Source of the DNA: Panopea generosa
Taxonomy: Eukaryota; Mollusca; Bivalvia; Adapedonta; Hiatellidae
NCBI GenBank assembly: GCA_029582155.1
Contig: CM055898.1
Location: 30,011,745 to 30,075,744 of the forward strand
Length of the DNA stretch: 64,000 nucleotides
Reading direction: 5' to 3'
Made by a program: the position numbers and the translations under genes. Positions 5,582-42,129 of the stretch are shown here, piece after piece (position 1 is the stretch's first letter; every line of letters starts with the position of its first letter). The notes beneath the pieces were generated by a model, which was not told where the DNA came from, ran no database searches, and worked only from the letters and a program-made list of their open reading frames with translations.

Positions 5582-5623
<42 letters not shown>
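5576..5623. repeat. (AT)n microsatellite
   Basis: Near-pure alternating TA over about 48 bp. Confidence 0.95.
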
Positions 5624-5629: not shown

Positions 5630-5960
5630 GCTTTCTCCCTTAGGCAGACTTACACTTATAACCATCATAAGGCAGACATATATTAGATCCGTCAAATATC
5701 AACACAGCTCAGCGAGTTTTTTCCTTTTCTACATAAAATGTGATAAAAGAACAAAATACCTAAATTGTTTTTATTAAATATGTAAAACAACAAATATATT
5801 TTTTCTGAGGTCTGCCTAAATTTTACACACTGATCTCATAAACCTTAGGCAGACATTGACCATCGTCATCATTAGGCAGACTGTATATTACCTATATACG
5901 TTAACGACATTTGGCAGACCTAAATCAATACCACTGCGATATTTCATATTTTAACCAAAA
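5630..5960. repeat. TTAGGCAGAC repeat cluster
   Basis: Five or more copies of (TT)AGGCAGAC or close variants lie in about 330 bp, next to an AT microsatellite. The same motif occurs in every mini-exon unit (21.8-27.3 kb) and in an inverted pair at 41853-41880. Confidence 0.6.
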
Positions 5961-11478: not shown

Positions 11479-11615
11479 TTAGCCCTGAAGCTTTTTCATT
11501 TTCTTTTCTACAATTTTTCTATGTTTGTTTTGTTCATTCATTATTTTTGTTCGAAGCTGTAAAACTCTGCATCCCAAGCTGTTCTCTACTGTGTACTTCT
11601 CCAAATCCTTCTTTG
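11479..11615 (-). CDS. Exon 17: terminal exon, end of C-terminal module and stop
   Basis: 137-nt terminal coding exon, acceptor CATTTCAG, phase 1 in, ending in TAA at 11481-11479. It encodes 44 residues, including KKDLEKYTVENSLGCRVLQL and RTKIMNEQNKHRKIV, and finishes with a lysine-rich helix. This completes the Myb/SANT-like module. I see no clear AATAAA within the next few hundred bases on the minus strand. AATACA at about 11367-11362 is a weak candidate poly(A) signal. Confidence 0.65.
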
Positions 11616-14600
11616 CTGAAATGACAAGGCAACATATTTCCCTCATTGTTTTGTATTATTTAAATCCCAATATCTAGAAATTAATAAATTTATTCAACTT
11701 TTAGTTTATACCAATTTATTTTAGCTTGATTGTGGAGGAAGCTCTTTAAGCTTATTTAAACCACTTTCGAGTTCGCTTCCTGGAACCAACTAGTACTGGT
11801 GTCATATGAGATGTCATGACCGTTGACCCCAGTGAGGCTCAAACTCACGACCTCGGGATTGAGCGGCCGACACCTTATCCACTACACCACCGCTCCCCTT
11901 ATAAGAACAGTGACAAAGATAATACATGTCTTTAAATACTATGTAAAATAGTACACATCGTCAGATATTTAATATTTTAAATGTAAGCTTCTTTTAAGTA
12001 GTTCTTGTTACAACTGAAGTCTGTTAAGTAATTAGTGAGCAGCATTTAATTATATATAAACACATGCAATAATTTTGCATCCAGTAGAATTAATAAATTG
12101 CCAGTTCAACAAAAAGAGGCACCACTGAGTGTGTGCCAACGCTTGGCTGTTATATACATATAAAAACAAAATCTGTCAGGTTTGGCTAACATATAAGATA
12201 TTCAATGAAACAGTGATCAATATCAAGGTAATGCGAAGTCAGTGTCAAATGTCACATCTCCCTGGAAAACTATTGTCATAAAGAACATTTGTGCAAGTAT
12301 GCATTAAAATGTGTTTTGTTTTTTTTTAATCAAATTATGTTTATACGTTAACTCTTGAGATAAATCGATAGTTCATTCCATAGATTTTGAATTTGGGAAC
12401 ATTCGTAAAATAAGTGTTGTATAGGCTCGACATTGCTCATACAAAAGTCACACAGACTCAAACCAACAAGTACAGGGAATTATATATTGAATGAATTTGT
12501 ATTGGTAATTTCGGGCGTTGTTTTCGATGGTTGCTTTCTATGGAATGCAATAAGTTTGCTTCCAATCAATTTAAGTTTTCCCATTTTATTTCTGGTTTTG
12601 GTTTAGGACAGTTATTCGTTTTAAGTTGAATATAACTACTGTATACTAATTTATTTGTTTTTTACGTTTTTATATCATACACAAGTGGTCAATATATATT
12701 GTTAATAAATGGTGTTTGCGTTAATACAACCTTGTAGTTTTCCGGAATATTTTTTACTAAAATATAATATTTTAAACAGTCCCTATTTGGTACATCATAC
12801 AGATTTTAAAAGTCTTCAAATTTGTAAAATGAATTATTAGTGTAATCAAATATATGCTTCTGTTCTATCTTCAAGCTAATATTTAAGCTAATATTTTTCA
12901 AATACCTGAATATAATTCAGTCCATTTATCCAAAACTTATTGAAATTTCAGCCCTTCTTTATGCAAAAAAAAATCACTTTTTACCAGAGTCGAGAAATAA
13001 ACGACTGCCATTCAAAGGGAAGTCACTTGTTAAAATGTAAGTTAATAACCAAAGAATAGTCTCAAAAGTTCCAACAAAACATTCAGGGTATGGAAATGGT
13101 TTAATAAACCGAAATTTACTGGATTAAGCTGACCTTGCCCAAGAATTCATATAAGCAAACAGCAGGTCAAACTAACAACTTATAAGAACCTGAATTCTAC
13201 AACTAAAACCACTTACAAACTAAACCCCTTTGTAAATATACCTAAGCTTGTCAAACATATCTGAATGCTTAACCTTTAAGATAATGAATAATGACAGACC
13301 CAAGTAAATTCACATTACATACCAGGCAGTCTGTTCCCTTTTGGAAGATGGATCCATGTTCTGAAATCATCTTTTATTTTTTCTGTTAAATCTGTATTCC
13401 AGCGAAATGAGGCTGAAATATTGTTAACTATTAATTAACCATCAATGTAAACAAATCACTTCATTGAAATGTTTAAAGATTTACGTGTGATCATACATTA
13501 GCAAAACCATTATGAATAAAGTTGTAGAAATAAAGCTTAGAGGTACCAATTAAATGCAATGAATAATACTTTAAAGAGACCAAGGTTATCATGCTCAAAG
13601 ATGTAATTCTATTTTGTACATGAAACTCTATACTGTATAAATCAACACTGGAACAACTGCAAAATGTTTTACATGTATAATTTAGATGATAGAACATTTT
13701 CGTCTCTGCCTCTGCCCTTCTCTTTACATAGAGACATTTTCTTTTTTTTCTCCAAATTCCATACAGCTTCTTGTTTGGTTGTATTGTTTATGCCTATATC
13801 ACATGTTAGGTACTGAGTGCATTATATAAACTTGAAACAATGTCAAGTTTGATTTTTATATCTCTGGTATTGGCAGTACCTTACAGAGATGGAACTAAAT
13901 TGAATGAGCTATATTTGGTTTTGGAAAACACTGAAAGATACTTATAAGTAGTCGTGGAGCAGAGCTGAACTGAATTTGAGCGTACATATTAATCGAGGGT
14001 CAGTTCATTACTTAATAGATTTATAGCCATGAAATGTTTTTGGTAACCTACTTTTCACACCTGTTTCCTGCAGCTATGCCACAGGCATTGTTTTTAAACT
14101 TGACAAAATACATCCCTGAACCCACCGCCAAGAAATTCAGTAACATAACCTCTTTACACTAACATTTTTATTTAAATACTTTATGCACTTGCAGAACTGC
14201 AATAACTTTGTACCTTTTCTGACTTGATTGCAGCTCTTTTTTCTCTCCATCTTGTTAGATGCATGTCCATCATCTGATAAATAAATTTTAGGAACATTAA
14301 AGCAACACATCCACGTTTAAACTTTTTTAAAAAAATTTTCAGTTGAGTTGTGAGCACATTTCCCATACATAAATATATGGTCAGTGAGCTGTATATGTGC
14401 TAACAAACACTATCCAGAACGCTTTAGAATTATAAAAAAAGATATTCAAATTATAAAGCGTGACAAACGCTTTATAAATTATTTTTAAATTGCCGAGGAT
14501 TCCAACTTGGCTTCAAATTGAATTATGCGAGTCGTATTAAAAAAACTTCACGTTTTAGTGCATAGTGTATTTTACCTGCCTTGAAAGTCATTTTGACCAT

Positions 14601-17600
14601 TTTTTTTTACTTGTGCGAGTTACAGGCTTGTTTTATAAAGTGTTAGTCATGCATTATAATTTGGGCATCATTTTGTTTGGGATTGTGTTTATATGCTCAT
14701 ATACAGCTAATTGATCATATGTTTGTATGGGAAATGTGCTCATAACTCAATTAAATTTTTTTTTTTAAAAGTTCAAACGTGGATGTGTTGCTTTAACTTG
14801 ATATATTAATTCTCAAACTAGTTTTTTTCTAACATAAGGGGACTGGGGCCAGGGCTCTTCAAGATGGGAAAATAAGCCAAAAAGGGGAATATTTAAGTAA
14901 AGACATAGCATAATATGTGTATTTCGTAACTGTAAGAATGTTAATTTATGTGTCAAATACATATTAAATTATTTTGTCTAAAATTGGACAAAATATATAC
15001 CTTTTTGACACATGGAAAAAACCCATAAGAGTGTGGAATATGTTCTTGTTTGGTTGAAGTCTTGTTTTTATATGACACAGGTCTTTAACTAAGATTTATA
15101 AAGTGTACATACAATGTAAATCAATTTATTTCTGTAGGACATACCCATATCTGCAGGACTTTCTGCCAGAATACATTCAAAGCTTTCTGTGGTTTGACTT
15201 TGGTCAGAGCCATATGTTTTTTGACTTGAGACAACACTGTCTGCAATACAGTTCTGGTTCATGCTCTGGTCAACTTGGCTCTGGTTACAGCAATCTTGGT
15301 CTGTTGAGCTGCAGTCGTTTACTCCTTAAATTTAAGATACAAATAGTAGAATATTGTAAACTAGATGAGTCTGTAGCACGTAGATACCTCAGCCAAACAT
15401 GCACAAGTGGTATGGGAAAGAATAAAAGTGCCCAAATTGCGTACTATGACATTGACTTTTGAGATAAAAGTACGATTTTTGAATGAGGCATGTACATGTA
15501 TTTATCCTTTAAGAGGGCCCTGAAGGCCCTGGATTGCTCACCTGACATCACCAGATAACCTAGTACCTAATATGCATAGATTTCATAAATAAAACCAGCT
15601 TTTCTTTTGATTTGACCTGGGGACCTATTTTTTAAACAGAAATGACCCAGATTTAAATTTGACCTACAAATCATCAAAATAAACATTCTGGCCAAGTTTT
15701 AAGAAGATACATACATAAATGTAACCTCTGGAGCATTAACGAGCTTTTCCTTCAATTTGACCTTGTGACCTAGTTTTCAAACAGAAATTAACTAGATTCA
15801 AATTTCACCTAGAGACCATCTAAATAAACATTCTGACCAAGGTTTGAAAAGATACATATATAAATGTGACCTCTACAGCATTAAGAAGTTTTTCCTTTGA
15901 TTTAACCTGGTGACCTAGTCTTTGAACAGAAATGACCCAGATTCGAACTTAACATAGAGATCATCAAAATAAACATTCTGACCAAGTTTTATAAAGATAC
16001 ATACATAAATGTGACCTCTAGAGTGTTAACAAGCTTTTCCTTTGATTTGACCTGGTGACCTAGTTTTTGACTGGAAATGACCCAGACTCATACTTGACCT
16101 AAAGATCATCGAAATAAACATTCTGAGCAAGTTTCATAAAGATGCATACATAAATGTGAAAACTAGTGTTAACAAGCTTTTCATTTGATTTGACCAAAAA
16201 GACCTAGTTTTTCACCGGAAATGACCCATATTCCAATTTGACTTAGAGATCATCAAAATAAACATTCTGACCAAGTTTTATAAAGATACATAAATAAATG
16301 TGACCTCTTGGGAGTTAACAAGCTTTTCCTTTGTTTTGACCTGGTGACATAGTTTTTGACCAGAAATGATCCAGATTCAAACTTGACCTTAAGATCATCA
16401 AAATAAACATTCTGACCAAGTTTTATAAAGATACATACATGTGTTAACAAGCTTTTCCTTTGATTTGACCTGGTGACCTAGATTTTCACTGGAAATGACC
16501 TAGATTTGCAAGTGACTTAGAGATCTTCAAGATAAATATTTTGACCAAGTTTTATAAAGATACATACATAAATGTGACCTCTAGAGTGTTAACAAGCTTT
16601 TCCTTTGATTTGACCTATTGACCTAGTTTATGATCCAAGATGACCCAGTATCGAACTCATTCGAGATTTTATTGAGGATAACAATCTGAGCAAGTTTCAT
16701 AAAGATTGGACTAAAATTGTGACCTCTAGAGTGTTAACAGTCAAATTGTTGACGACGGACGACATACGATGACAGACACAGGGCCATCACAAGAGCTCAC
16801 CTTGAGCACCCCCCTCACCCAACCCCAAAAGCAATTCCAATTAATCTTTACAATTAAAACTTTCCATAAAATGGTCACCGCAAATGTAACCAAACTTAAG
16901 CAAAAATACATAATGTAAATCAACACTGAATAAACAAGAAACCGTGGGAGAATGGGTGTTTTGAAAGCAATTATGTAACGCATAATGTTCTTGCGCAATG
17001 CACCATCAATAAGATATATCCACCTATGAAGTTTGAAGATGATAGCTGTCATGCTTTAGGAGTAATGCTTCATAGAACATTCAAACATGAAAAGTAAAGG
17101 GAAATGTCTCAAACTTTGAAGTGCAGAGTTATGGTTCTTATGCATTGCAAACCTCCTCAATGAAATATATCCACCTTTGAAGTAAAGGACAGTTTTTTGC
17201 CATTTTTTTGCAATAGCAGAATTTCTTCATACTTTGTAATAAGTTAGTTCACACTATAACTGGTTGATTTGTGAAATAAAAATGATAGGTTACCGATCTT
17301 ATTTTTTTTCTATTTGCCTGTCAGTACTAGAAATTTCGTATGAAATGATGTACCCAAGTTCTCCTCCACTTCCGTTCCATTCCAGAATTCAGCATTAATT
17401 TTCAAATTGTAGTGTTTAAAATTATTACCAGTCCTATTAAGTTTTGAGGTAACAAACATTCCCTTCCTTGGATTCATAAGGAATTTAAAAGTTGTCGTTC
17501 TCATTTATTTTTTATCAGAACCAGTGCTGGTAGCAAAAAACACCCTGTGACATTTAACTGTCACATACGTCTTTAATAGCTGTTATAGTATAGGAGTAAT

Positions 17601-20600
17601 GCTCTAATGCCCTATGAAGTTTCAAATTGATTGCGGTTCTGGTTTAGGATTAATGCTCCAGACAAAATTTAAGTATGAACAGGAGCTGTCACAGACGACA
17701 GTTATGCCCCCCTTGAGGCCTTGTCAGATTTTCTTTTTGGACCTCAACTGTGTTTTTGACCTTAAAACAAAATTAACATTAAGGGTCACAGTTACCTTGA
17801 CATTTGATAAATGGGCAAGCTGATGTTTGCAACACATTGCCTGGTCCCAATGGTAACTTGTACCAAAAGATATTGAAATCAGTTGATGAGTAGACATGTG
17901 ACAGTAACTTTGACCTTCAACCTTTGAGCATTGTAATTGTTTGCCACACAGTCTGGTATGTTGAAATCTGATGATCCATAGCAAAGTTATTAAGTTGAAA
18001 TGAATTTTTAATTTTAAAGGTCACAGTGACCTTGACCTTTGACCTATTGGTGTGGAAAATGTTTGCAATTCATTTGCTGGTTGACCCATGAACCTGTATG
18101 TTGTGCAATACACATTGTCATGTTCCAATGGTCACTTTTGTCAAAGTATTTTGAAATCTAATGGTCCACAGTAAAGTTATTGAACTGAAAAAAAATTACA
18201 ATAAAGGTAACAATGACCTTGACCTTTTGGGGTGGTTGTTGTTCACGACACATTGACTGGTCCCAGTGGTAATTTGTGCCAAAGCATTTTGAAATCCGAT
18301 GATTCATAGAAATGTTGAGCAAAAACAAATTTTACACTTGTAAGGTCACATTGACCTTGATCTTTGACCTACAGGTGTGGCTAAAGGTCGCATCACATCA
18401 CCTGGTCCCAGTGGTCACTCGGCCGGCTCCAGTAGTCAATTGCACCAAAGCATTTTGAAATCTGATATTTCATAGCTATGCTATTGAGCTGCAACAATTT
18501 TTAAATTCAAGGTCACAGTGACCATGACCTTTGACCTAAAGGCATGGCTCTTGTTCACGACACATCGCCTGTTCATTCACAGTGGTCACTTGTCCAAAGG
18601 ATGTTGAAATCTGATAATGCATGGTGAGGTTATTGACTGGAAACAAAATGGGACAGACAGACAGACGGACAATGCAATTACTATAAAAAAAACACAAAAA
18701 AACAACAAACACTTCGAAGTACATATTCACATACCATCCAAATTTCTTAGGAATTTGCCCATGACTTTTATTGTTCTGACTCCAGGCGGACACTGGTAGT
18801 TTTCTTTGTTGATCATTTCATCATGGCCCATATGGTCAAAGAATATTCTCCGATCTATCTCTGACATGTCCAGACTTGCGAAGACTGTTGAGGCTCGGTG
18901 CCTGTTCTTTGTTGCATTAATGGATACACCAGCTGCATTGCACACATCTGATACAGCATGCCAGCCTGAGCAAGGGTATTGAGAACTCTTTGTAGCAAAC
19001 AAAAATGGATTCCTTGCGGAAATTTTGAAATTCACCCTATTGTCCAGCAAAATTTTAACAACATCAACAAGGTCTAGCGGTATAAGAACTGGCACATACT
19101 TTTTGCCTTTCCCAGCCAAGTACGCTAGTTTGAATTGTCCAACCAGGAACTTTTCTGCTGGATCTTTAATACTCTCTACAGACTCTGGTGGTACCCAAAC
19201 ATCATTCATTGCGTCGTTCCATTCTTCAATCAGAATTCTGCAACCTTCCTCGCCTCTTCGTGCATTGTATAAAGTTAATCGAGCAACAACAAGAGATCTT
19301 AGCCAAGAATACTCTTTGATTGTGAAATTCTTCACCAAATGTGTAATTTCTCCATGGATGTATGATTTGATATGAGCTATGTGGCTTTTTTCTGGCAGGT
19401 TCTTTGGCATTCGGGCTTTTTTCAATGAGTTTTTGTTAGTTACATACCTAGCTTTTGCCAAAAATTCTGCGGTTCTGTCTGAATAAGCCTCACTGAATTT
19501 TTTCAACTCTTTATGCTTTTCATCAGCACATATCCCAGAATAATGTTTTTTCAATGTTTTGATGCTTTTCTGGAAAATGCCATTGAGACTGACTTTTAGA
19601 CCAGATTTCTCTCCATCTTCTTCCTCACTTTCATATGCACACAATTTGTTAAATCCTTCTACCAGCAAGTCTAAATTTTTCCTGTCATACATATCTTCAA
19701 AACAACAAGGATCATCCTTTAAGTCTTTAAAAGTCAAGAACAGTCTTGCTAATTCTCTCATTTCCATCATGATTTCACGTTTTACTTCCTTACTCTTACT
19801 GATTTCAACTTTTCTGGAAACATAATGTTTGTAGCCGATCATTTGAATTGTTTCATCTTCCCGGATAAAGTCTCCAGCTTTTCCATCTCTGAAATTGTTC
19901 AAGATTTCTTGTACGAATTCAGAATCTTTGTGTGTAAGTAAAGGCATTATTGCATTTCTTTTAATTGGCTCACTGTCCACACACTTTCTTTTATGTTTAT
20001 AAAATGTTCTGTTAGAAAAAAAACCTTTGCATTCATTACACATCCTAACTTCATCTTTGTTCTTTGGTTTTTTTTCCCGCATCATTTGCTCATCACTCAA
20101 GGTAACTATGTTAGCTGTGTTGTACTTGTATATTCCTTCAATTCTCATGCGTTCAAACCATTTATTTTGTTCCTGGACCGTTTTTTTCAACATTTCGGCA
20201 ACTTCTTCATGACTTTTCCGATGACTTTTAATATGGCGTTTGAGCTTGCCTCCTGTTATTATCTTATCGCAGAAGACACACATGCGATTTGGCCTCTGAA
20301 AGAGAAAAAGTTTTTGTTATTCTATTCCTTTATTTCAAAACTGAAGGAAGATAAAAATATGTAGTTAAAAACAAGAGCACCGCTGAGCAGGTGCTACACT
20401 TGACTGTCTGTTTCAACTAAAAGTAAAATTTTTCAATGAGATAGTGACAAATGTCAAAGTCATATTGAAGGTTAAGGTCGCAGTGACACAACTTACTAGA
20501 ATGATGTTGTTATGGATCTTTGTGGGTAAGTATTGTGCGTAAGGTTTAACCTGGCACCTCATGAATATTCCATTTTAGTCTAGGTCAAGGTCATTTGGAG

Positions 20601-23600
20601 GTCAAGGTCACAGTTTTATACATCACTGTAAAGGTGTTGTTCTAAGGAACAATGTGTGCAAGTATGAACAAATTGTTAAAAAAAAGTTTTTGCCAATATT
20701 TAGTATTTCAATTAAAAATTGACCAAGATCAAGGTTATTTGGGGGTTAATGTTAATTTATCATACCTTGTATAGGTGTTGTCCAAAGGAACAATGTAAGC
20801 AAGTATAAACAAAATCTGTCAAGAAATAAAGAAGTTTTGACCACTATTAAAGTTTTTCTATTAAATATTGATCATTTGGAAGTCAAGGTCATAGTATCGT
20901 ACCTTACTGAAAGGTGTGGTTCTAATGAAAATTGTGTGCAAGTATGAACAAAAAAGAATTTATGGCCAATAAAGTTTTTTTCTATGACAAGACGCAGACG
21001 CTGCCAAGGCGAAGACAATAATTCAAATTTTTCATCGAAACAGCCGAGCTAAAAATGACAAACAAAAAACAACACCAAGTTATGACAATAATTACAGCAA
21101 TTTAGATAAATTCAACAGGCCAGAGGTGTTTATTAGGTAACGGGGAAGACGCTGGGTGCTGGTCAAAGAAAAAAACAATCACACGAAATAGGAATATTTG
21201 GGAATTTTTTTTTTTTTTATGTTATATAGGTGTCATACAACATTTTTATGGGTCAAGAAGTCTGCACTTGTCAAAATAATGACTGCATTGCTTGTGTAAT
21301 AAGACAACTAAGTATCAAGCAATAATAAAAATATGTTGATCTTCGACAATTTTTTCCCAACACCTTTGCTTACTGCCTGAGGAAACTGACTTTAAAAGGA
21401 AAAAATTAAGACACAGACTAGGTCACTTTCTTCGCAAGAAAAAACATGCCGTCACCTCTTTCTTTCCTTTTTTATTCTTTTCATTCTTCTCCTCTTCATT
21501 GTCCTCTTGCCTACATGTTAGTCCATTTTTTCCAGTAGATGCACTTGCCTAAATAAAGTACTTAACAGTTAACTATAGCAATTAAAAAAGCCATGAACAT
21601 ACATAAAATTATATGACTGTAACACATTTTATTACAGTCCTGTCAATCTAGACATGTGTCCATAGAATACAGATGCCATGCTTTTTGCAACACAAAGAGA
21701 TTGGGACAGACAGCAGACGAACAAATGATTAAACAAGGGCAAATCTAAATGCCGCCCACCAGGTGGGGACACAAAACATACTTCCATAATAGGAATGTGC
21801 CTTTTATAAGCTGAGCTGACATACACACAAATATTCAAACTTAGGCAGACACTTAAGACATCATCTTTATTTTATACATACAAATAACCATCATTATGCA
21901 GACATTTATAGCAGTTCAATTTTTTGTTCAGTCTGCAGTATGATTTGTTCAGTCTATAGCATTGTTTATCTTTCTCTAGGTTTAATTGTTCAACTGTGTT
22001 TCATATACTACTGAAATTTTGTCTGAATGTTATTTTACTTGTGATTTATTTAATGCATCACTAGTAGTGTGACTGTGTCATTTCACAAATGAGTCTTTAT
22101 CAACTTTACAGGTCACTTAATTACCTTAGTCCCTTCTTCCATCTCTATTTTGTCATCATCATCATCATCATGGATCTGTTCTTGCTGAAATCATATGCAA
22201 TTATTTGAATCTTATGCAACATCAAAGAAGGTATTGCACAACACAACAAACTTTGAAATAAAAGAATACATAGTTAATACTTTTTTTCAGCTGCAATATG
22301 ATGTAGACAATGCTCAGCTGACATCCATATAAATATACCTACTTAGGCAGACAACAATACATTTTCTTTATTCCACACATACAAATGACCATCATTATGC
22401 AGACAAAAATCACGAAGGATTTTAATTGTTTGTTCAGTCTATATTATTGCTTATCTTTCTCTAGGTTTAACTGTTTAACTAGGTTTCATATGCTACTGAA
22501 TTTTTGTCTAAATTTTATTTTACATGTAATTATAAACAAGAGGGCCACAATGGCCCTAAATCGCTCACCTGAGCAAAACTATAGGTTACACTGAAGGTCA
22601 TGGTAAAGGTCATTGAGTTACCATTTATGACAATAGAGTAAGTAGAAAGATCTGACCTACTATCATAGCAAAATATCCAATGTATTGGTAAAGGATTTCC
22701 AACGGAACAATTTTATCATGTTTTAATCAAGATAAACATTCTAAGTTTTATAAAGATACAATCATAAACGTGACCTAGACTGTTAACAAGGTTATCCTTT
22801 GATTTGATTTGTTGACCTAGTTTTTAACTTCATATGACCCAGATTCGAACTTGACCTAGAGATCATCAAGATAAACATTCTGATGAGGTTTTATGAAGAT
22901 ACACTCATAAGTGTGACTTCTAGAGCGTTCGTTAACAAGGTTTTCCTTTGATTTGACTTGGTGACCTAGTTTTTAATTTCACATGACCCAGATTTGAACT
23001 TGACCTACAGATATCAAGATAAACATTCTGACTAAGTTTTATGAAGATACAATCAAAAATGTGACCACTTGAGTGTTAAAAAGGTTTTCCTTTGATTTGA
23101 ATTAGTGACCTAGTTTTTAACTTCACATGACCCAGATTCGAACTTGACCTTATAATAATCAAAATAAAGATTCTGACAAAGTTTCAAGAAGATACAGTCA
23201 TAAATGTGACCTCTAGAGTGTTAACAAGCTTTTCCTTTGATATGTCCTGGCAACCTAGTTTTTGTACTTCTCCTTACTATTGTTAAGATGAACATTCACA
23301 CCAAATTTCAGGAAGATTCCATGAAAAATATGGTCTCCAGAGTGAAAAAAAGGTTTTCACATTTTTGGACCCTGTGACCTAGTTTTTGACCCAATTTCAT
23401 CCAATTTCGAACTCATCAGAGCTTTCATGGCAGTCGACAATCTTACCAAGTTTAATGAAGTTCCAATCAAAATTGTGACCTCTAGAGTGTTAACGAGGCA
23501 AATGTTGACAGACAGACGACTGATGCTGGACAGAGGGTGCTCACAATAGCTCACCCTGAGCATACACTCAGGTGAGCTAAAAATGCATTTATTTAATGCA

Positions 23601-26600
23601 CCACTGTCCAATTTGAAGAGCAGTAGTGTAACTGTGTCATTTCACAAATGAGTCTTTATCAACTTTACAGGTCACTTAATTACCTTAGTCCCTTCTTCCA
23701 GCTCTTTTTCGTCATCATCATCATCATGGATCTGTTCTCGCTGAAATCATATGAAATTATTTGAATCTTTTGCAACGTCAAAAAAGGTGTTGCACAACAC
23801 AACAAACTTTGAAATAAAAGAATACATGGTTAATACATGTTTTAAGCTGCAATATGATGTAGACAATGCTCAGCTGACATCCATATAAAATATACCTACT
23901 TAGGCAGACACACAATACATTGTCTTTATTTCACACATACAAATGACCATCATTATGCAGACAAAAATCACGAAGGATTCTAATTGTTTGTTCAGTCTAT
24001 AATATTGCTTACCTTTCTCTAGGTTTAACTGATTAACTAGGTTTCATATTCTATTGAATTTTTGTCTAAATCTTATTTTACATGTAGTTATATTTATTTT
24101 AATATTTTGTTGGGTTTAACGTCGCACCAACACAATTTAGGTCATATGGCGACATTCCAGCTTTAGTGGTGTAGGAAGACCCCAGATGCCCCTCCGTGCA
24201 TTATTTCATCACGAGCGGGCACCTGGGTAGAACCACCGACCTTCCGTAAGCTAGCTGGATAGCTTCCTCACATGAAAGAATTCGACTACCCTGACGGGAT
24301 TCGAACCCACAGTGGTGAGGGGCCTGTGATTCTTGGTCAGCGACCTTAACCACTCGGCCACAGAGGCCCCCATATGTAGTTATAAAAAATGCATTTATTT
24401 AATGCACCAATGTTCAATTTAAAGAGCAGTAGTTTGTGTCATTTGACAAATAAGTCTTTATCAACTTTACAGGTCACTTAATTACCTTAGCCCCTTCTTC
24501 CATCTCTATTTCGTCATCATCATCATCATCATGGATCTATTCTTGCTGAAATCGTATGCAATTATTTGAATTTTTTGCAACATCAAAGAAGGTATTGCAC
24601 AACACAACAAAATAAAAGAATACATGGTTAATACTTTTTTTCAGCTGCAATATGATGTAGACAATGCTCAGCTGACATCCATATAAATATACCTACTAAG
24701 GCAGACACACAATACATTGTCTTTATTTCACACATACAATCGACTATCATTATGCAGACAAAAATCACGAAGAATTTTAATTGTTTGTTAGGACTATATT
24801 ATTGCTTATCTTTCTCTAGGTTTAACTGTTTAACTAGGTTTCATATGCTACTGAATTTTTGTCTAAATCTTATTTTTCATGTAATTATAAAAAATGCATT
24901 TATTTAATGCACCACTGTTCAATTTAAAGAGCAGTAGTTTTGACTGTGTCATTTCACAAATAAGTCATTATCAACTTTACAGGTCACTTAATTACCTAAG
25001 TCCTTTCTTCCATCTCTTTTTCGTCATCATCATCATCATGGATCTGTTCTCGCTGAAATCATATGCAATTATTTTAATCTTTTGCAACATCAAAGAAGGT
25101 ATTGCACAATACAAAAAACTTTGAAATAAAAGAATACATGGTTAATACTTTTTTCAGCTGCAATATGATGTTGAGACAATGCTCAGCTGACATCCATATA
25201 ATTATACCTACTTAGGCAGACACACAATACATTGTCTTTATTCCACACATACAAATGACCATCATTATGCAAACAAAATTCAAGAAGTATTGCAATTGTT
25301 TCTTCTATCTTCTAGGTTTAATTTTTCAATTGTGTTGCATATTCTACTTTAATTTTGTCTGAATGTTATTTTACATGTTATTATAACAAAAGCAGTTTGA
25401 AAAACCACATGCTCGACTATTCTCAGTGCTTGATAGTTATGCTTAACACAACTCAGTTCTTAATGTAATAAGGGCAGATAACTCTGGATAGGCATGTCAC
25501 AGGGTTATCAGCCTTTTCAGTATGGACTCCTCTTGTGATTCTTGTGATAGTGAATAACTATTCCGAGTTTCAAGTAGATATTTTTGATAGTATATGAGAA
25601 ATTGACTATTTGGTAGTCATAAAAAAGGGAAATAACTCTTATATAAAGCTTAATAGTGTTGTCTCCTCATGTCAACAGAAGTAGGTCAAAACATTTTACA
25701 AGTGTATTGAGTTTCAAGTTGAAAGCTTTGATAGTGTTTGAGAGTAAAGTCAGCCAACATATGGATGTCATTATGATAAACAAGAGTTCAAAGTTTCAAA
25801 GCCAGATGTCAAATAGTTTTGACAAAATTTTGACTTGTATGAAATTTTAACCAATTTTATGTTTAAAAGGGGCCATAATTCAGCCAAAATAGTTAACAGA
25901 GTTATGTACTCTTGTCTACTAGTGGATACTGTGATAATTTACAAGTGTTGAAAGTTTCAAAGCCATAGGTGAAATAGTTATAACAAAATATTGCATTGTA
26001 TAACATTTGTACCATTTTTTAAGTTCAAAAAGGGCCATAATTCAGCTAAAATCCTTGCAAGAGTTACCTCCTCTTGTCTGGATGTAGCCATGGTGATGGT
26101 TAACAAGTGGTGAAAGTTTCAAAGCTTTATCTCAAAAGACTGATACGAAAAATTTAACTAATTAAACCAAGATTTCTAAGTAAAAAAGGGCCATAATTCA
26201 GCCAAAATCATTGATAGAGTTATCTCCTCTTGTTTAGATTTTACTATGTTGATGATAAACAAGCGTTGAAAGTTTCATTTAAATATCTTTACTAATAAAG
26301 AAGATATTGGACTTTATAAAAAACTTTAATCAACGCAGATGCCGGCGCCAGGGTGAGTGCAATAGCTCTCCTTATTCTTCGAATAGTCAAGCTAAAAAAT
26401 GCATTTATTTAATGCATCACTGTTCCATTTGAAGAGCAGTAGTGTGATTGTGTCATTTCACAAATAAGTCTTTGTCAACTTAACAGGTCACTTAATTACC
26501 TTAGTCCCTTCTTCCATCTCTATTTTGCCATTGTCCTCATCATGGATCTGTCCTTGCTGAAATTATATGCAATTATTTGAATCTTTTGCAACATCGAAGA

Positions 26601-29600
26601 AGGTATTGCACAACACAACAATTTTTGAAATAAAAGAATACAGTTATTATACTTTTTTAGCTACAATGTGATGAAGATTGAAATATTATCCATGGTGTGG
26701 TCTTTTTTAAGCTCAGCTGACATCCATATATAAATATTCCTACTTTGGCAGACATATAATGCACAGTCTTTTTATTTTACACATGCATATAACCATTATT
26801 ATGCAAACAAAAAACATTCAGTATTTATAGCAGTTCAGTTTTTAGCTCAGTCTTATAGTGTCATTTTCTTTTTTGAACATTTAACTGTTCAAGCAGGTTT
26901 CATATGCCTCTCAGTCTAACATTTTACTTTAGATATGATTATAAAAATACACTCATTCAATGCATCAACGTCTATTAGTAGAACAACTACTAGACTAGTG
27001 TCATTTCACAAACAAGCCACTGTCTATGTTTACTTTACAGCTCACTAAATTACCTTATTCCCTTCTTCTATCTTCTTTTCATTATGATGGATCTGTCCCT
27101 GCTGAAATCATATGCAATTATTTAAATCTTTTGCAACATCAAACAAGATGAGACACAACACAACAAACATTGATCTAAAATGAAATAATACCCATGGTGT
27201 GGCCTTTTATAAGCTCAGCTGACATCCATATTAATATTCCTACTTAGGCAGACATATAATACACTGCCTTTACTTTACACATACAAATGACCATCATTAG
27301 GCAGACAGATATATACTGATCATGAATAAGAAACAGGCTGTTGTATTATATTTTGAATAAGAAAAATGTAATAAATTATTCATATTTCAAAATTTAAAAA
27401 ATAAATAAATGAAATTGTGATTAATCAGGCTGTCTGAAAATAGTCTAGGAAACAAGTTATTATATTTACCTGTGATATATTTAATATAATTGTGCTTAGG
27501 CCACTTTCTTCTGAATCAGTTAAGTAACTGTCATCAGATGAGTTATCTGTAAAATATATGCTGCTTTTGAGCAAATATCACAAAAATACATAATGTACAA
27601 TCTTGTGACGATACAAAAAATAAAAAAAACAAAAATGAGTGTCAAAATGTCACAAAATATGCCCGTTTGGGTTACACTGAATGGTAAAGGATGTGTTTAT
27701 TTCTGGTAAAATTTTTAAGGAAAACAAGTTATTGACAGGAATACTGCGTTGAGAAATTATGCCAAACAATCAAGTTTGATGGCGAAATAATAAAAACTAT
27801 TTAAATAAGAGAGCGGACAAGGTTATTTGAGGCAATTTTAGATAATTCAAGGGCCACAATTCGGAAGTGGTTGACCCGATCTGGCTAATTATCGAACTTG
27901 ACCGAGATTTTAAGCCCACAAACATTGTCATCAAGTTTGAAGATGGTACATAAAAGTATTTGAGTTAGAGACAGGACAAAGTTAATTTGGCCAATTTTGG
28001 GCAATTCAAGGGCCATAATTCCAACATACTTAAGCTAATCTGGCTGGTTAATGAATTTGACTAAGATATTATGCCAACAAACATTGTCACCACCTCTGAG
28101 GATGATACAATTAAAACTATTCGAGTTAAGAGAGTAGACAAGGTTAATTTGGCCAATTTTGGGCAATTCAATGGCCATAATTCCAAAGTGCTTCAGCAGA
28201 TCTGGCTGGTTATCGAACTTGACAGAGATATTATGCCCACAAACATTGTCATCAAGTTTGAAGATGATACATAAAAGTATTTGAGTTAGAAAGCAGACAA
28301 GGTTAATTTGGCCAATTTTGGGCAATTCAATGGCCATAATTCAGACGTGCTTCAGCGGATTTGGCTGGTTATCAAACTTGACCGAGATATTATGCCCAAA
28401 AACATTGTCACCAATATTGGAGATGATTCAATAAAAACTATTTGAATGAGAGAGCAAACATCATTTTATGGACACGGCCCACCCGTTGCAGGTGTTCACG
28501 TAATACTTCCCGTTTTTCAAAGGGGCGTATGAAAATATACCTTTAAGATCATTGGAATTAAATGGCAGAACAATTTTGATATGTAATAAAGTTTGAGACA
28601 TTACAAGTCCAAAAAATGACAAAAGATTAACTGTTGTTAATCCAACCACTGACATTTGCATCAAAGTTTCACAATGCCTGTAGTAGTACATGTAATTACC
28701 AAAAAAATATTTCAATTTACCATTTTCAAAATACATACAAGTACAATCAAAATCAGACGTAAAAACTGCACATACCTGATATATTTCCAATATCAAAGGG
28801 ATCATCATCGTCATCGTCATTGTTGTTGTAGGAAAGATGATCTGTTGAATGTAAATTAAACACTACAAGCACTGAGATCATTGAGATGCTAATTATTTCC
28901 TGATGTTAAAGAAATGAAGTGTAAATGTCTAACACAGCGACAGCCTTGTGCAATAAAATACAGAAGGGAAGTTTAAATGTAAATATAATATGCTGTATAG
29001 TGAAAAAAAGCACAAATTCCCATAGCTAATAAAGATAGCCCATTTCCAAGGCAGTGATCATGATCAAAATCCCCAGCCAATAAACAACCTTTCCAGAATT
29101 TTTCTGCGAATCCTTGCACAATTTTCATATAAATATTGTAACATACAAACAGCACAACAAACAGAAGAGAAACAATACCCCCTTTGCACAGGTATTAAGA
29201 ACATTAAAATATTGTTTTAAAAGAAACATAACATGAACAAGTTAAAATTACCATATTTCTTCTCAAGCTGTGATAATTAAAAATTGCATCTGTTGCAGTA
29301 ACAGTATTTTTCAATCATGTGTTTTATTTTATACTTTGTTCCTCTGGTTTGAAATTGATCAAATACTTTGATTACTCATGATGCCTGTATACCTAGCTAT
29401 ATACTTAAAACTTATATAATGGAATTCTATTAAAATTATACACTTTCAACCAAACAGAAATATTTGTTAAATTTATTAGCCTACTTTGTTAAAGGCCGTA
29501 ACATCAGTGAAGAATAAAAAATTCTTTTTTTAGCTGGTTTCACTACATCAGCCTGCATGTATGTTCTAAAGCAGCATTTTTTGTTCTGACGAAGAATTTA

Positions 29601-32600
29601 ATATTACTTCTATAAAACGTAAAACTTCTATGAAACACATTGGTAACTAACATGACAAAAATAAGAGCTGTTTGTAAAACACATATGCCCCACATGATGG
29701 CCTGTCGGAGGAAAGAGGTAAGTCAACAAATATTACAAGATCCTTATGTGGTAGATAAAGGTCAAAATAAACCAAAAATTCTAGGTAACATCCGTGTCTT
29801 ACTACAGAAAAAGTGGTTTCAGTTTTCCATTATGACCAATAATAAAAAAAAGTTGCTACTTACAGTAACAACCAAGGGAAGTAATTTTAAAAAAAAATCA
29901 GAGTAATCTCCCTTAGCAAATCAAGTAATCTGATTTATTTATATCGAAAATGTAAACAAATATCTATTGTTCACAAGCAATCATCAGTTTCAGTTTAATG
30001 ACCTTGACCATTGACCTAACAACAATAGAAGGTCATCTACTGACCGCAGCCAATCATCCTATAAAATCTAACCAATATAGGTCTAAGCATATGCCACTTA
30101 TTAAACAGAAACCATTTTCAGTAATGAGGTCACTGTGACCTTGACCTTTGACATGCTGAAACCAAAATATTAGGGGTCATCTACTGACAACAGGCAATCA
30201 TCCTACAAAGTTTGACAGCTGTAGGGCCAAACGTTTTCTAGTTACTCGGCGAAAACCATTGCCAGTAATGAGGTCACTGTGACCTTGACCTTTGACATGC
30301 TGAAACCAAAACAATAGGGGTCATCTACTGACTATTGGCAATCATCCTATAAAGTAGAAACGATTTTCAGTTTTGTGGTCACTGTGACCTTGATCTTCAA
30401 CCTTCTGACCCAAAAGAAGATAGGGGTCATCTACTGACTAAAGGCAATCACCATTTAAAGTTTGACTGCTGTATGCCCAACCATTCTCTAGCTATTAAGC
30501 GGAAACAATTTTCAATTTTGAGGGCACTGTGACCATGACCTTTAACCTACTGATCCTCAAACCAATAGGGGTCATCTGCTGACCACAGGCAATCATCCTA
30601 TAAAGATTAGAACCTGTAGGCCCAAGTGTTCTCTAGTTATTCACCGGAAACCATTTTCAATTTAGAGGTTACTGTGACCTTGACCTTTGACCTACTGACC
30701 TCAAAATCAATAGGGGTATTCTGCTGGTTATGGCCATCCTCTACAACAAGTTTCAAGATGGTAGGCCAAAGCGTTCTAAAGTTATTATCCAGAAACGGTT
30801 TTATTATTCTGGGTCACTGTGGCCTTGACCTTTAATGTACTGGCCTCAAAATCAATAGGGGTCATCTGCTGGTCAATACCAACCTCCATATCAAGTTTCA
30901 AGATGGTTGGCCATAGTGTTCTAAAGTTATTGTCGGGAAACGGTTTTATTATTCTGGGTCACTGTGACCTTGACCTTTGACCTCAAAATCAATAGGGGTC
31001 ATCTGCTGGTCCTGACCAACCTCCACAATAAGTTTCAAAACAGTAGACCAAAGCGTTCTAAAGTTATTGTCCGGAAACCGTTTTAATATTCTGGGTCACT
31101 GTGACCTTGACCTTTGACGTACTGACCTCAAAATCAATAGGGGTCATCTGCTGGTCATGACCAACCTCCATATCAAGTTTCAAGACAGTAGGCCAAAGCG
31201 TTCTAAAGTTATTTTCCGGACACTGTTTTATTATTCTGAGTCACTGTGACCTTGACCTTTGACGTACTGACCTCAAAATGAATAGGGGTCATCTGCTGGT
31301 CATTATCAACCTCCACATCAAGTTTCAAGATTGTAGGCCAAAGCATTCTCAAGTTATCATCCGGAAACCACTTGGTAGACAGACAGACAGACGGACCTAC
31401 CAACCGACGGACCGACATCTGCAAAACAATATACCCCTCTTCTTCAAAGGGGGGCATAGTGAAAATGTTGTTTTGAATCTTGAAAATTGCTTTTTATTCG
31501 AATTGTCCATTTCAAATTAAACAATGTTGAAAAGCAGTCTTTTGTTACAAAGCTTTCAAAATGTGTATTTCTTTCATAAATGGTCACATTTGACAAGTTT
31601 AGTACACTAAATACTAAAATGTACAGGTCTTGTTTTCTATTCACTTCGTATTCATCCGTGATTTTGTGGCTTTTAAAAAGTTGCTTACCACATGTTACTT
31701 TGTAAGATTGTTCCTTTTTCATGGGGTTAAAGCAGGGGACAAACAAAAAATGTTCTTATGAAACTTAAAATAGGCTGAATTGCCTTAATGTATATTAAGA
31801 TACTGTTATTTTGATGTTCTGTAATGACAATTTCTTTGACAGATACATTGAAAACTGTAAATTTACATTTAAATTAATTTTTGTCACTGGTTAGAATGAA
31901 ACCTTTTATGTTAACTTTAAAGATACAAGACTAGTGAAAAAGTCATTTTTACACAAAATAGTTATCACTAATCAGGAAAAACTCCTTTAAAAATACCATT
32001 ATTTGATGATCTCAAGTCAACCGAATAAGAACAAAAACTAGAACTGTCACTGAAAGCACTTTGAGTCCAACTGGATTCAGAACAAAAACAAAGCTGAAGT
32101 TCAACTCTACTGTGACAGATTTTTATGAAAATTATGTCATTAAAAAAAATAATGTATGCTGACTCCTATACACCTCCCTTCAAACATAGTTTGTTATTGT
32201 ACATGTATATATAATACCTGTTTTGTGTTATGCCTCCACCATAAATTGCTGCTGTCGCCGTAATCATACAGGAGTTCTTGCCCTGGATCAATATGTTTCA
32301 AAGCAAACAAACACAGTTTCGGGGTGTTATTTACAATTTTCAATTTCATCACACAGTTTGCTTCCTTACTAGGTGCGTCGTTTACAAAGTGGCATACATG
32401 GCCTTGTGTACTGCTGGCATCAATGCTGAAATAAATTTTATTTACTTTTTACTTCATTTTGTTTTCACGCACCTACTTCAAGCAACAAGAGGCCCATGAG
32501 GGCCAGATGCTCTACTGACTTCTATCACCTATAATTAACATAGCTGAAAATGGGTGGGGCGGGCCAATAGGCCAATATTGACCACTGCAGCATCGGGAAG

Positions 32601-35600
32601 GGGGGGGGGGGGGACAATACTGACCCCAGGGGCATGATTTGAATAAACTTGGTAAAAGACCTTAAGACAATGTCTCATATCAAGTATGAAAGCTGTGGGC
32701 CTAGTGGTTTTGGAGAAGATTTTCAAAGTCTTTCTTAAATAACTCTATGTAAACATGAGGGCCATAATGGCCCTATATCACTCACCTGTCTAATACTCAC
32801 CAGATTGTTTTTCGATTTGACCTGGTGACCTAGTTTTTGACTGGAAATGACCCAGATTCAAACTTGACCTAGAGATCATCAAAATAAACATTCTGACCAT
32901 GTTTTAAGTAGATACATACATAAATGTGAGCTCTAGATTGTTAACAAGCTTTTTCTTCAATGTGACCTGGTGACCTAGTTTTTGACTGGAAATGACCCAG
33001 ATTTAAAACTGACCTAAAGATCAACAAAATAAACATTCTGACCAAGTTTTACGAAGACACATACATAAATGTGACCTCTAGACCGTTTTACCTTCAATCT
33101 GACCTGTTGGCCTAGTTTTTGACCAGAAATGACCCAGATTCTGATTCAACCTAGAAATTATCAAAATAAACACGTTGACAACCTTTTAAGAAGATATATA
33201 CATAAATGTGACCTCTAGAGCATTAACAAGCTTTTCTTTGAATTTGATCTGGTGACCTAGTTTTTGACCTGAAATGACCCAGATTCAAACTTGACCCAGA
33301 TTAAGCGCCAAAGATGATTTCTGACCAAAACTGTGGCCTCTATCGTGTTTACAAGCTAATTGTGGACGGACGGATGGATGAAGAGTGATCACAAAAGCTC
33401 ACCCTGTCACTATGTGACAGGTGAGCTAAAAAGATAACCCCCTTGGGTGGGGGCCAATAATGACCCAAGGGCCATGACTTTAACAAGCTTAGTATAGGAC
33501 CATTAAAAAATGTTACATACCAAATATGAAAGCTCTGGGCTCAGTGTGTCTGGAGAAGATTTTCAGAGTTTTTCCTATATAACTCTATGTAAAACATATT
33601 AGCCCCAGGGCGGGACCTATACTGACCCTAGGGCAATGATTTAAACAAACTTGGTAGAGGACCATTAGACAATGTTACACACCAAATATGAAAGCTCTGG
33701 GTCTAGTGGTTCTGGAAAAGAAAAAATTTCAAAGATTCCAATTTTAAAATCTATTTTAGCCCTGTGACCTGCATATGCAACAGACTGGAACCATTTGAAC
33801 AATTTTGAAAGAGGACCACATAAGGATCATTAAGATGAAGTTTGGTCAAATTTGGCCAAGTGGTTTAGGAGATGTTGTTTAAATGAAAGGTTAACTCACA
33901 GTCGAACGCAAATGTACAATTCTAAGTCCCCTTACAGGGCCCCTATATATTTTAGCCCCTAAATTCGTAAAGACATAGGAACCCAGTCATTTTTACAAAT
34001 CTTAACCTCCTTCAACAATGCTTTAGTGAAAATATAGGCAAAATCATTTCCAAAAAAATAAATAAAAATATTTTATTGACATGTGTCCCCTAATTGAACT
34101 CTCGGGGCAGGGTCATTTTTAACCCTAGGGACACCATTTGAACAAATGTAACAGAACTATAGATGGTCATTATTACTACATAAACATTTTGAAAATCTGT
34201 TGGGCCGTTCATGAGAAGAAGATTTTTTAAGTTTTGGACTATGTTTAGTAATGGCGGCCATCTTGAATTTCAGATTGAAAAAAAAAAATCTTCGGTTTAG
34301 TCTCCTATGCAATAGAAACACCCATGTGAAGTTTCAGTTTAACTGGCCTAGCGGTTTCAGAACAGATGAAAGAAAAAGAGAATTTTCTGTTTTCATGTGT
34401 CTCCTAATTGAACCCTCGGGACAGGATCATATTTAACCCTAGGGACACCATTTGAACAAATCTAACAAAACTATAGTTGGTCATCATTTCTATATAAACA
34501 TTTTGAAAATCTGTTCGGCCATTCATGAGAAGAAGATTTTTTAAGTTTTAGACTATTTTTAGTAATGGCGGCCATCTTGAATTTCAGATCGAAAAAATAA
34601 AATCTTCTGTATAGTCTCCTATGCAATAGAAACACCCATGTGAAGTTTCAGTTTAATTGGCCTTGTGGTTTCAGAGAAAGTGCTGCTAACAGACGACAGA
34701 CGACAGACAACGCGCCATCGCATAAGCACTTCTGGTCAGTAGAGCTAAAAATCAATCTTTTATCTTTAATTTGATACCAAAAACATTTTTCGGAACCTAT
34801 TCTAAGTATACCGCATTTTGATTTGAAAAGTAAGACCATTGACCGGAATCGCAAATATCTGTCAAAATGGCGGCCGATTAAATTTCCAAATAGCAGTACT
34901 CGATAAAAAGCTTCGTCCTGAAGGCAAACAATGTAAGAACATCATTGTCGACATGAATCAACTGGTAAGTAAATTATTTTATACTGGAATATTTATTTTT
35001 TAACAAAATACGACAAAAAATGCAGCAGAATGGGAATTTTTGGCTCAGTATGCATTAATAAAATTATATGTCAGAGACATCAGGACATAGTACAGTTCGC
35101 CGAGTATTTTCCACTCCAAAATGAAAATTTTTGCTTGTTGCATATAAAAAGCGATGTGTATATAGATGGAAAATCATTTTCGGAAACATTTGTAGAATAA
35201 AAGTAATTATTTGCGTTTGTTTTATCACTTAATTTATGTTATGTTGTTGTCGCTATTTTCTTGTGCGTCTACTTTCGTTATTGAGTGTTGTGAATATTCG
35301 GATAGAAGGATTCGGATATCCGGCAAGCAGTGTAATATTTTCAGATGATAAACATATTATTTTTTTGGTGTCATCCACATGTCTGCTGTTGATACCATTG
35401 TTGAATATGAAAATGATTATAAAATAAATTATTTACATTAATATCATTTTGTATTTTCAGACAATGGATGGCGAAACTTGGACCATTCTGTCATTCTATA
35501 GGGCTGACAGAAACCTCAGCTGCTGAAGGAGATATACCAGTTTTTAACAGTATATCAAACGGTGTGGCTCTTGAACTGAAACCTTATTGTGATGCTAAGA

Positions 35601-38600
35601 ATTTGACTTATGAACAGTTCATTAACATCCTGTCAAAACTTGATCCAGACTTTAGTGCCATCAACCCAAAATCTGTTGCCTCAAAATTAAACCGTCTCAA
35701 AGACCATAAAAAGTGTCTCACATCCAAGAAGAAAGTAAAGGGCAATACATGAAATAACTGTGATGCTGTAATGCAGTAGGTCTTGGCCATTTTAATATTT
35801 ATTAACACATTTCCATATGTATGTATGATGATATTTTTTTTATAAAATCAAAAACTTATTCCAAACATTTTAGTCAGATTATAGTAATATTTTAAACTAA
35901 ATGATATTTTTATACTGAGTATATGCAATATATTGGTATTAAAAACATTATACTATGATTGATGACCATTTGTAACATTGCATTATCATACTATATGTTC
36001 AAATTTACTATATTATGCTGAGATTGACGAAAGAAAAATAAAATGTATTCTTTTTTACTTAATTTTGTTGTGTTTTTCCTGTGTTGTGGCAGTGTCTGCT
36101 CTACACAAAAACTAATGACAGAAATGGATTCTACAGGAAAAAACCTATCAGACTGTGAAGTTTCACGAGTATAGCATAAAGAATAAAATAGTTACGAACA
36201 TTTGAAGTGAAAATTTTCCTTTTCTTGGGTCCGCGAACGCGACTCGATTTCCTATATAATATACTAGTAAAAATTTCCAGGAAAACGCGACTTAGTCCAA
36301 ACTTCAATTCTTCATAACTTTTTTAATTTTAAAGATATTTCAAAAATTTAAACTGTTCTGGATTAGGCAAACAAAGCTCTTTAAGTTTTATTTGTTTAAT
36401 GTACAATATTTGGATCATGAAAATTTAGCTGGGGTTGCTACCATTAAGCCTTTTATGAGAAGCTTACAAGGTGTATTCAACTAAAACCATCAAAATTTAC
36501 CTTAAATTAAATTATCTCTTTAAATTTTCAACAATCTCTTGAATTAAATTACCTAAATTAAATTAAATTATCTATACTCATGCAATGTGTGCAAGGAATC
36601 TATGTCAGAAAAAAAGGCATAACAATATTTTAAATGAAGTCAATGCAATGGTATTCCAGGAATTAAAGGATGTCAGGGCTGAGATGCCTTATTTGTCTGT
36701 GGAAAGCCCAGTATGAAACCCCAAACCCTCCCTGCTATACCTTTGCTACTCTACATACCACAGTTTTTTCCGATTAAATGTGAAGAACATTTTGTTTTCG
36801 GCATATTTCTTTTCTCGCCTCTCCCCCTCTTCCTCTGTTAATCTTTCTCCTACATATTCTAGTAGGAAGTCACCTTTCCGGTGGTCAACTGTGGTAAAAA
36901 CTCCAAACCCTATAAATAAAGCCAAAACAATTACCAGTAGCGGCATATAGCAGTACAACAGTTACTAGCAACTAAACTAGAACACTTTGGTATTCAGGTA
37001 GAACTTATACTGAACATGAGCAGTCAGAATAGCTCAGGTAGTTAAGTGTCAGTGCAAATATTTATTACCGGCAATAAAAAGTGATCCTGTGACATTGACC
37101 TTTGACCATAAAACAATAGTGGTCTACTACTATGATCAAGACCAATCATCATATTTGATAAGAAGTTTGTATAATGAATGGTTCTCCCGATAATAAGCCA
37201 TTTTGCAATTAAGTAACCCTGTGATATTGACCTTTGAAAAGTGACTCAAAAATCAATAGGGGTCATCTACACATCAAGACTATCATCATATGAAGTATGA
37301 TGTCTGAGTGTATGGCCCCTTGATATGCCAGTCTGTCTGCGCTACATGTATGTGTCATTAGCTTGTGTTATTAACGCGACCAAGTAACAAAGAAAAGCCA
37401 GCAACAAGTTTTACTATTTGTAAGTTTAGTAAACAAACACAATTTCATTTGCTCAATGTATTATTCAATTAGTAAATACGAGCGAATGAGTGTAATTTTA
37501 CACCCCCAAATTATATCATATTCATGGTTACAATAGCATTGCGCTAAGAAACTGTCGACATTTGCTAGATGCTATGTTATATTGGAGCTCTACTTAAATT
37601 TCATGATATGAACAGATAATGCATCCACAAAGAAATCTACCAAGAAAATCTGTCAATGTTTACAACTTCTGCTCTGCATGCATCTTTCTTACCTTTGAAA
37701 TCAGACACATATTTTACTTTAAACCCCTCCTTGTCAATCCCTGCTGAGCAGTAGTGCAGCATATCCATCTCTGGTGTTCTTTGCTAGAATTAGAAGAAAA
37801 ACAAATTAACTTTATAATGAAATATTCCCTGGGTAACAACTTTTTTTTGGGGTTAACATTTTTTGGGTGGAAAACTGTTCCATAGGTGGTGGGTAATGAA
37901 GAAAAGTTTACCTCTTATTATTTTTGTACAATATTAAATTAAGTGCACAATTCTTACTGTTAAATGCATTTTATTATTATAAGCCAGTATAAAAAAATAC
38001 TAGTGCTGAAACAGTTGAAATTACTAACCGGTTATTAAACATACCCAACCGGTTAACCACAATTTGTTTGCCTTAAATTGACGTAATTTGAGTGTGAACG
38101 TGCATGCATTTGTTTTTAACACATTGTGTTTTTTTTCAGCTGTTTTTGGAGAAAAACACAGAAACTTTCAAATGCACAATGGTAGACTTATTAATTATGT
38201 GCTTAACTACAAAACTCTGTGACACACAATTTCACTAACCCAGTTTGGGTCGTTTTTGTTATTTTCACTATAGTCTGTGTGCACTTGATGACTACATCAA
38301 CGCAGCAATTTTAAAGACGCAACGTAGGCCTATTTCATAAATGTGTTCCTTTGAATATTTTATGTGCTTCGTCACAAATCGCATATGACTAATTCTCTGT
38401 GTTTACTGCAACACATAAGAAATATAATGGCTTAAAGGAATAGAAACGGTTAAAAGGTTGCCGTCAACAAAACGAAAAACAAATATCTTCTATATCTATA
38501 GTTATAAACCACTGGCCTTTCTGCCTCTTGGTGCGGCAAGTTTGTTTTTAAAAAAAAAATATACGTCTTGACTATTGACAATTTAGATTGTTTAATGGCG

Positions 38601-41639: not shown

Positions 41640-41960
41640 GTTTATTCAATATTGAAATATGTCTGCCCAAGTGGTATATTACATATATTCTAAAATATAC
41701 GCCACAAGTTTTAATGATGTAAAAAATGGTAATTAAAACAAAAAAAAGCAAAAAAAGTTTGTAATGTTAAAAAGAGAACACTAAATTTAACTAGACTGCC
41801 AATACAAAGTGTAAAAATATTCTTTACGTTAATAGTGAGAATAGTCAAAACATTAGGCAGACTGAATTTTGTCTGCCTAAATTTTGAGTCTGCCTAATGA
41901 TTATTTATTTATACTTGACGTCTGCCTTATATGTATGATATATATATATATATCAAAGTA
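41640..41960. repeat. TTAGGCAGAC inverted pairs next to an AT microsatellite
   Basis: TTAGGCAGAC at 41853-41862 and its perfect complement GTCTGCCTAA at 41871-41880 form a 10-bp stem with an 8-base loop. Two further CTGCCT(A/T)A copies follow, then an (AT)n tract near 41937. Same association as at 5576-5960. Confidence 0.65.
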
Positions 41961-42129
41961 TGTGAAATGAGATGACTGCCCATAGCAGACCCCTATTTAT
42001 CAGGTATCTGAACTGAGGTTGCTGAGGCCTTTATAAACATCAGGAAGGTGAACCTAACACCTATAGTAGACCTTTAACATTCAAAACAATTAAAACAACT
42101 TTGTACTGTAGTTATAAACAAACATATAA

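Follow-up and report, generated by a model that had tools for sequence, protein, structure and literature searches.

The window, a 64,000-nucleotide stretch of the Panopea generosa genome (assembly GCA_029582155.1, contig CM055898.1, positions 30,011,745 to 30,075,744), carries on its minus strand a long spliced gene at 11479-41435. From a minus-strand reading and scripted junction tests, we assembled 17 exons, in order of transcription and numbered from the start of the window: exon 1 at 41435-41406 (30 nt), exon 2 at 37783-37693 (91 nt), exon 3 at 36909-36759 (151 nt), exon 4 at 32425-32218 (208 nt), exon 5, a microexon, at 29267-29252 (16 nt), exon 6 at 28841-28776 (66 nt), exon 7 at 27546-27470 (77 nt), exon 8 at 27101-27054 (48 nt), exon 9 at 26556-26500 (57 nt), exon 10 at 23740-23684 (57 nt), exon 11 at 22184-22125 (60 nt), exon 12 at 21548-21456 (93 nt), exon 13 at 20295-18735 (1561 nt), exon 14 at 15324-15145 (180 nt), exon 15 at 14273-14214 (60 nt), exon 16 at 13412-13323 (90 nt), and exon 17 at 11615-11479 (137 nt). 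Together they amount to 2,982 nt, equal to 993 codons and a stop, and are separated by 16 GT-AG introns. A preliminary description had joined 17 minus-strand exons into 993 codons with no phase conflict, and we were able to rebuild that model; in two further copies on contig C7, here called C7a and C7b, the frame and 32 of 32 splice dinucleotides are preserved, and exons change in length by 3 nt only.

Exons 2 to 4 (32218-37783, minus strand) encode a predicted SET methyltransferase domain that is KMT5A-like, as had been proposed. The Pfam SET model matches residues 41-147 with 64.8 bits and was the only model above cut-off in a Pfam scan of the 993-aa protein, and KMT5A (SETD8) is the top solved-structure match (E 2.1e-18), above EZH2 and others. 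The asparagine of the NHS motif and the YDYGD motif are retained; the domain differs from KMT5A in being joined to a recombinase and in having VND with two extra residues as its NHS motif.

Between this domain and the large exon 13 lies an acidic linker (exons 5-12, 21456-29267, minus strand). Its presence had been described correctly, but it is in part a tandem array of six exon units, two of which (25052-24996 and 24545-24486) contain in-frame stops and are omitted from the 17-exon model. The two stop-bearing units may be skipped, or the window copy may have suffered slight damage; of the units found, those that are open number 4 of 6 in the window, 5 of 5 in C7a, and 6 of 6 in C7b. The end of exon 4 and the starts of the acidic units and of exon 13 are all in phase 0, so that the chain stays open with varying sets of open acidic units. 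Within the array (22125-27101, minus strand), which thus has six, five, and six units in the window, C7a, and C7b, each unit has an intron and nearly each has a GGCAGAC motif.

Exon 13 (18735-20295, minus strand) encodes two zinc-finger-like motifs and a domain that is likely a tyrosine recombinase. The motifs can be read in the sequence as the preliminary description had it, but their Pfam scores fall under the cut-off. For the domain, no Pfam match above cut-off was found in the exon or in four of its relatives; the profile matches are weak but controlled. A profile of six relatives, compared with the sequences of the PDB, ranks the recombinase XerA (5hxy) first with a weak E value of 6e-4. 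A 13-sequence profile aligned with 81 XerD proteins scored 39.6 (P 2e-4, weak at an hhalign probability of 46), against 15.2 for the reversed profile and about 22 at most for 20 column shuffles; the core of the alignment extends from the lysine of the hairpin to the arginine of box II. Judged by the catalytic residues of tyrosine recombinases, R-K-HxxR-H-Y, candidates stand in place for the arginine (R664/R665), the lysine (K716/K717), the box II arginine (R783), the histidine (H809), and the tyrosine (Y818). The histidine of the HxxR box II aligns with a threonine, which is common to all five alignment rows that reach the site. We also observed that residues 42-223 of the recombinase exon of a diverged lineage, B (L017 1465-3186), match TniQ (30ga) with E 6.5e-4 in a single-sequence search of the PDB.

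The C-terminal tail (exons 14-17, 11479-15324, minus strand) is without a Pfam match, and the Myb/SANT-like end once read there has no Pfam model to back it in the scan of the 993-aa protein. The gene at 11479-41435 is best described, from an open and splice-consistent frame, as encoding a KMT5A-like SET domain and, downstream of it, a likely tyrosine-recombinase domain; this much of the proposed SET-recombinase gene is supported, and its assignment as Crypton-type is not. DUF3504 is a Pfam family that Kojima and Jurka derived from Crypton recombinases, according to the portions of PMC3212892 available to us, in which animal Cryptons are described as being without a C-terminal domain or terminal repeats (section 8) and no SET domain is named. 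The genome contains 86 DUF3504 matches and at least 114 Phage_integrase matches (149 of 275 candidates scored); neither model matches within 10 kb of any of the 57 recombinase loci that we count below, and hmmscan found no DUF3504 in the protein. Four exons follow the recombinase exon, and motif clusters stand at both ends of the unit in which the gene lies. Having considered membership of the Cryptons, we reject it on these grounds, as far as DUF3504 and the available Crypton descriptions set the two apart. The likeness to Cryptons (CryptonA/CryptonI, DUF3504 genes) is that in both a tyrosine recombinase carries a DNA element lacking long terminal repeats, whereas here the element is 36-46 kb long, the gene has 17 exons and encodes a SET domain as well as zinc-finger-like motifs and a C-terminal tail, and the loci are unmarked by DUF3504.

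This gene is the principal one in a mobile unit of 36-46 kb that is dispersed in the genome. When 80 kb around each C7 copy was compared with the window, the match ran from about 5597 to 41953 (36.4 kb, oriented on the minus strand by the main gene), with sharp ends, unrelated flanks, and only repeats matching outside. Within these limits, long aligned stretches are about 95-99% identical across exons, introns, and nested repeats alike. The element measures 36.4 kb in the window, 37.0 kb in C7a, and 36.7 kb in C7b, and, from paired ends, about 38.7 kb on C18 and 45.6 kb on C16. Genome-wide searches with the two ends found six left and six right ends; the two kinds were found together at five places, which lie on four contigs. 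A search with exon 13 counted 27 paralogous matches, five of them near-identical and full-length (C5, which is the window, two on C7, C16, and C18), with one stop each in the C16 and C18 copies; fragments lie on C1 and C12, and there are further weaker matches. C12 retains a left end with decayed pieces of the recombinase, and C1 a right end with SET exons and a recombinase fragment. Lineage B, about 34-35% identical to the window, consists of four near-identical copies (C2, C4, C17, and C19). The element is a bounded unit at unrelated sites, as expected of a DNA transposon, and because the whole unit is dispersed, a single host fusion gene is rejected. No empty site was seen for the window copy: its flanks lie in repeats, and among the matches listed, out of 438 to the window flanks, none spans both halves.

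The ends of the element are distinctive. At each of the 11 ends read, two for each of five copies plus the right end on C1, it adjoins (TA)n, in the window at 5585-5622 on the left and 41939-41952 on the right, and 13 (TA) tracts of at least 12 bp, those of the element ends included, occur in the 224 kb examined. Just inside are two clusters of a GGCAGAC motif: six, mostly in the form TTAGGCAGAC, at 5643-5919 on the left, and five, four of them in the opposite orientation, at 41661-41926 on the right. All 19 GGCAGAC occurrences in the window (usually TTAGGCAGAC) lie inside the element; in the C7a region all 18 do, and in the C7b region 20 of the 21. In the window, the left 323 bp contain six (five on the plus strand), and the right 293 bp five (four on the minus strand); the other eight lie among the acidic exons. 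In the right cluster, at about 41855-41880, two of the motifs are paired in inverted orientation over 10 bp, with 8 bp between them; an inverted pair around a short spacer is a shape known from tyrosine recombinase sites. No long terminal inverted repeat was seen at the element ends.

Beyond the near-identical copies, the two domains keep company across the 1.47-Gb genome. Leaving out matches to loci already counted, we found at least 62 SET loci and at least 57 recombinase loci, and 21 of the 57 have a same-strand SET match no more than 60 kb upstream, against 0.07 expected under uniform placement. At two recombinase loci a SET match lies within 60 kb downstream. The 21 loci fall into about eight lineages by manual grouping, and copies of the same lineage are not independent; the association is still far from chance. 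SET and recombinase therefore appear to be an old association of several lineages. Exon structure, read by eye, points the same way: the window shares the first acceptor of the SET exons, phase included, with lineages B, F, and D and with C16:918804; it shares the donor with B, F, and D, and the next acceptor with B and F, with C16, and with C18:43930647 and C14:47690494. We infer that the two domains are fused in other lineages as well. The remaining 36 of the 57 recombinase loci, short fragments among them, have no SET match in range; SET may have been lost there or be too diverged to find. At one locus (L026, G000:C12:25400056-25414322, minus strand), a diverged recombinase, 23% identical, has a 637-aa open frame with a SET exon about 12.5 kb upstream.

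Differences between the copies bear on constraint. The window and C7a differ at 23 of 2,982 exon positions (0.77%) and at 306 of 26,936 elsewhere (1.14%), a lower exon divergence that is only suggestive and not significant (Fisher p 0.08). Nei-Gojobori (NG86) estimates, each based on few changes, gave dS 0.0124 and dN 0.0067 for the window and C7a, dS 0.0071 and dN 0.0004 for C7a and C7b, and dS 0.009-0.031 and dN 0.002-0.009 within lineage B; the window and C16 run in the opposite direction (dS 0.0033, dN 0.0129). Exon indels relative to the window number one in C7a and two in C7b, all of 3 nt; outside the exons C7a has 42, with 5 multiples of three among them, and C7b has 40, with 7.

Taken together, we consider that the window probably contains a recent copy of a giant (36-46 kb) tyrosine-recombinase DNA transposon in which recombinase and SET methyltransferase are fused, a reading to which we assign a probability of about 0.7. 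The start of the main gene lies about 520 bp in from the right end, and the 17 exons of this gene would yield a protein of the order SET, acidic linker, zinc-finger-like motifs, and recombinase. This protein would bind the GGCAGAC clusters and pair the element ends. Strand exchange would then take place within (TA)n, and the element would therefore join a genomic (TA)n tract, which could provide the core match required by a tyrosine recombinase. The SET domain on the same chain might methylate a histone or another protein at the element or its target. Such methylation could open or prepare the target, restrain the element, or help it to persist and mark new insertions; the data favor none of these roles.

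It is unlikely that SET and recombinase are instead two separate proteins of the same element, made from neighboring or alternative transcripts. The large introns and the 16-nt microexon that separate the halves would suit that arrangement, as would the two window acidic units with stops, which would cut the chain if included; yet all junctions are in frame and conserved in three copies, the phase-0 boundaries of exon 4, the acidic units, and exon 13 keep the chain open whichever open units are used, and C7a and C7b have only open acidic units, 11 of 11 among those found. Slightly less likely still is that another enzyme moves the element, for instance a TA-targeting transposase supplied from elsewhere, with the SET-recombinase gene as cargo or regulator. 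Targets of (TA)n and inward-facing subterminal motifs suit cut-and-paste transposases too, and the box II histidine is replaced; against this, a long terminal inverted repeat is lacking, no mobility-type domain was found besides the recombinase, which retains its other key residues, and the recombinase is common to diverged, dispersed lineages. Spread of an ordinary host fusion gene by segmental duplication could account for few copies whose introns and nested repeats are copied along with the exons, and is very improbable given that five places spread over four contigs share the same pair of (TA)n end points, that the flanks read there are unrelated, and that a second lineage (about 34% identical) likewise consists of four near-identical dispersed copies.

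More tentatively, and with somewhat less than even confidence, the fused transposon may represent a so far unrecognised superfamily of giant transposons of animals, one whose protein combines a histone-type methyltransferase with a tyrosine recombinase, with the writing of chromatin marks as part of the transposition cycle and (TA)n microsatellites as the targets. Uncharacterised proteins of similar appearance are presumably present in other animals and offer a lead. Chromatin silencing is usually directed against transposons; a recombinase with a histone-methyltransferase domain of its own would, if confirmed, allow a direct test of whether a transposon writes marks for site choice, self-restraint, or persistence. 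It would, moreover, place a giant tyrosine-recombinase element outside the fungi. Since the recombinase is missed by the DUF3504 and Phage_integrase models, which do mark other recombinases of this genome, such elements could easily be misannotated as host KMT5A-like genes.

As far as the accessible descriptions go, the nearest analogues would be Starships by size and SETMAR by fusion. Starship elements of fungi are likewise giant and carry a tyrosine recombinase, whereas here the genome is of animal type, the recombinase is fused to SET, the targets are (TA)n, and no cargo genes were recognised except one small antisense frame. SETMAR (Metnase) similarly joins a SET methyltransferase to a transposon enzyme; in the descriptions available it is a lone primate gene that was domesticated and contains a mariner transposase, in contrast to a tyrosine recombinase fusion in dispersed mobile copies. 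A SET domain in a tyrosine-recombinase element is not described among the literature matches listed, a scope that leaves most subscription papers, preprints, and Repbase outside, and nothing on such an element was found in the searched passages of PMC6431247, PMC10294476, and PMC8905726, the last of which names Crypton among clam repeats.

The ten frames tested gave no Pfam match above cut-off and no further transposase or polymerase domain. Viral contigs scanned with the recombinase alignment yielded 26 pattern matches and no relative, and a PHROGs search with two proteins gave no credible match. The small antisense frame lies in intron 3 (35423-35752, plus strand) and is possibly a second gene of the element; it is present in all five full-length copies, with 293 bp identical to C7a and C7b, and has three weak relatives (C2, C8, and C17) and no Pfam match. 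Two intronic stretches, at about 24290-24371 and 11840-11900 on the minus strand, look tRNA-like and SINE-like by eye; ARAGORN called no tRNA in the window. Directly outside the right end is a tandem array with a 178-bp unit (42073-43829), which belongs to a repeat present at many places, and farther out, at 50986-60344, lies a 9.4-kb satellite with a 50-bp unit and a longer-period substructure.
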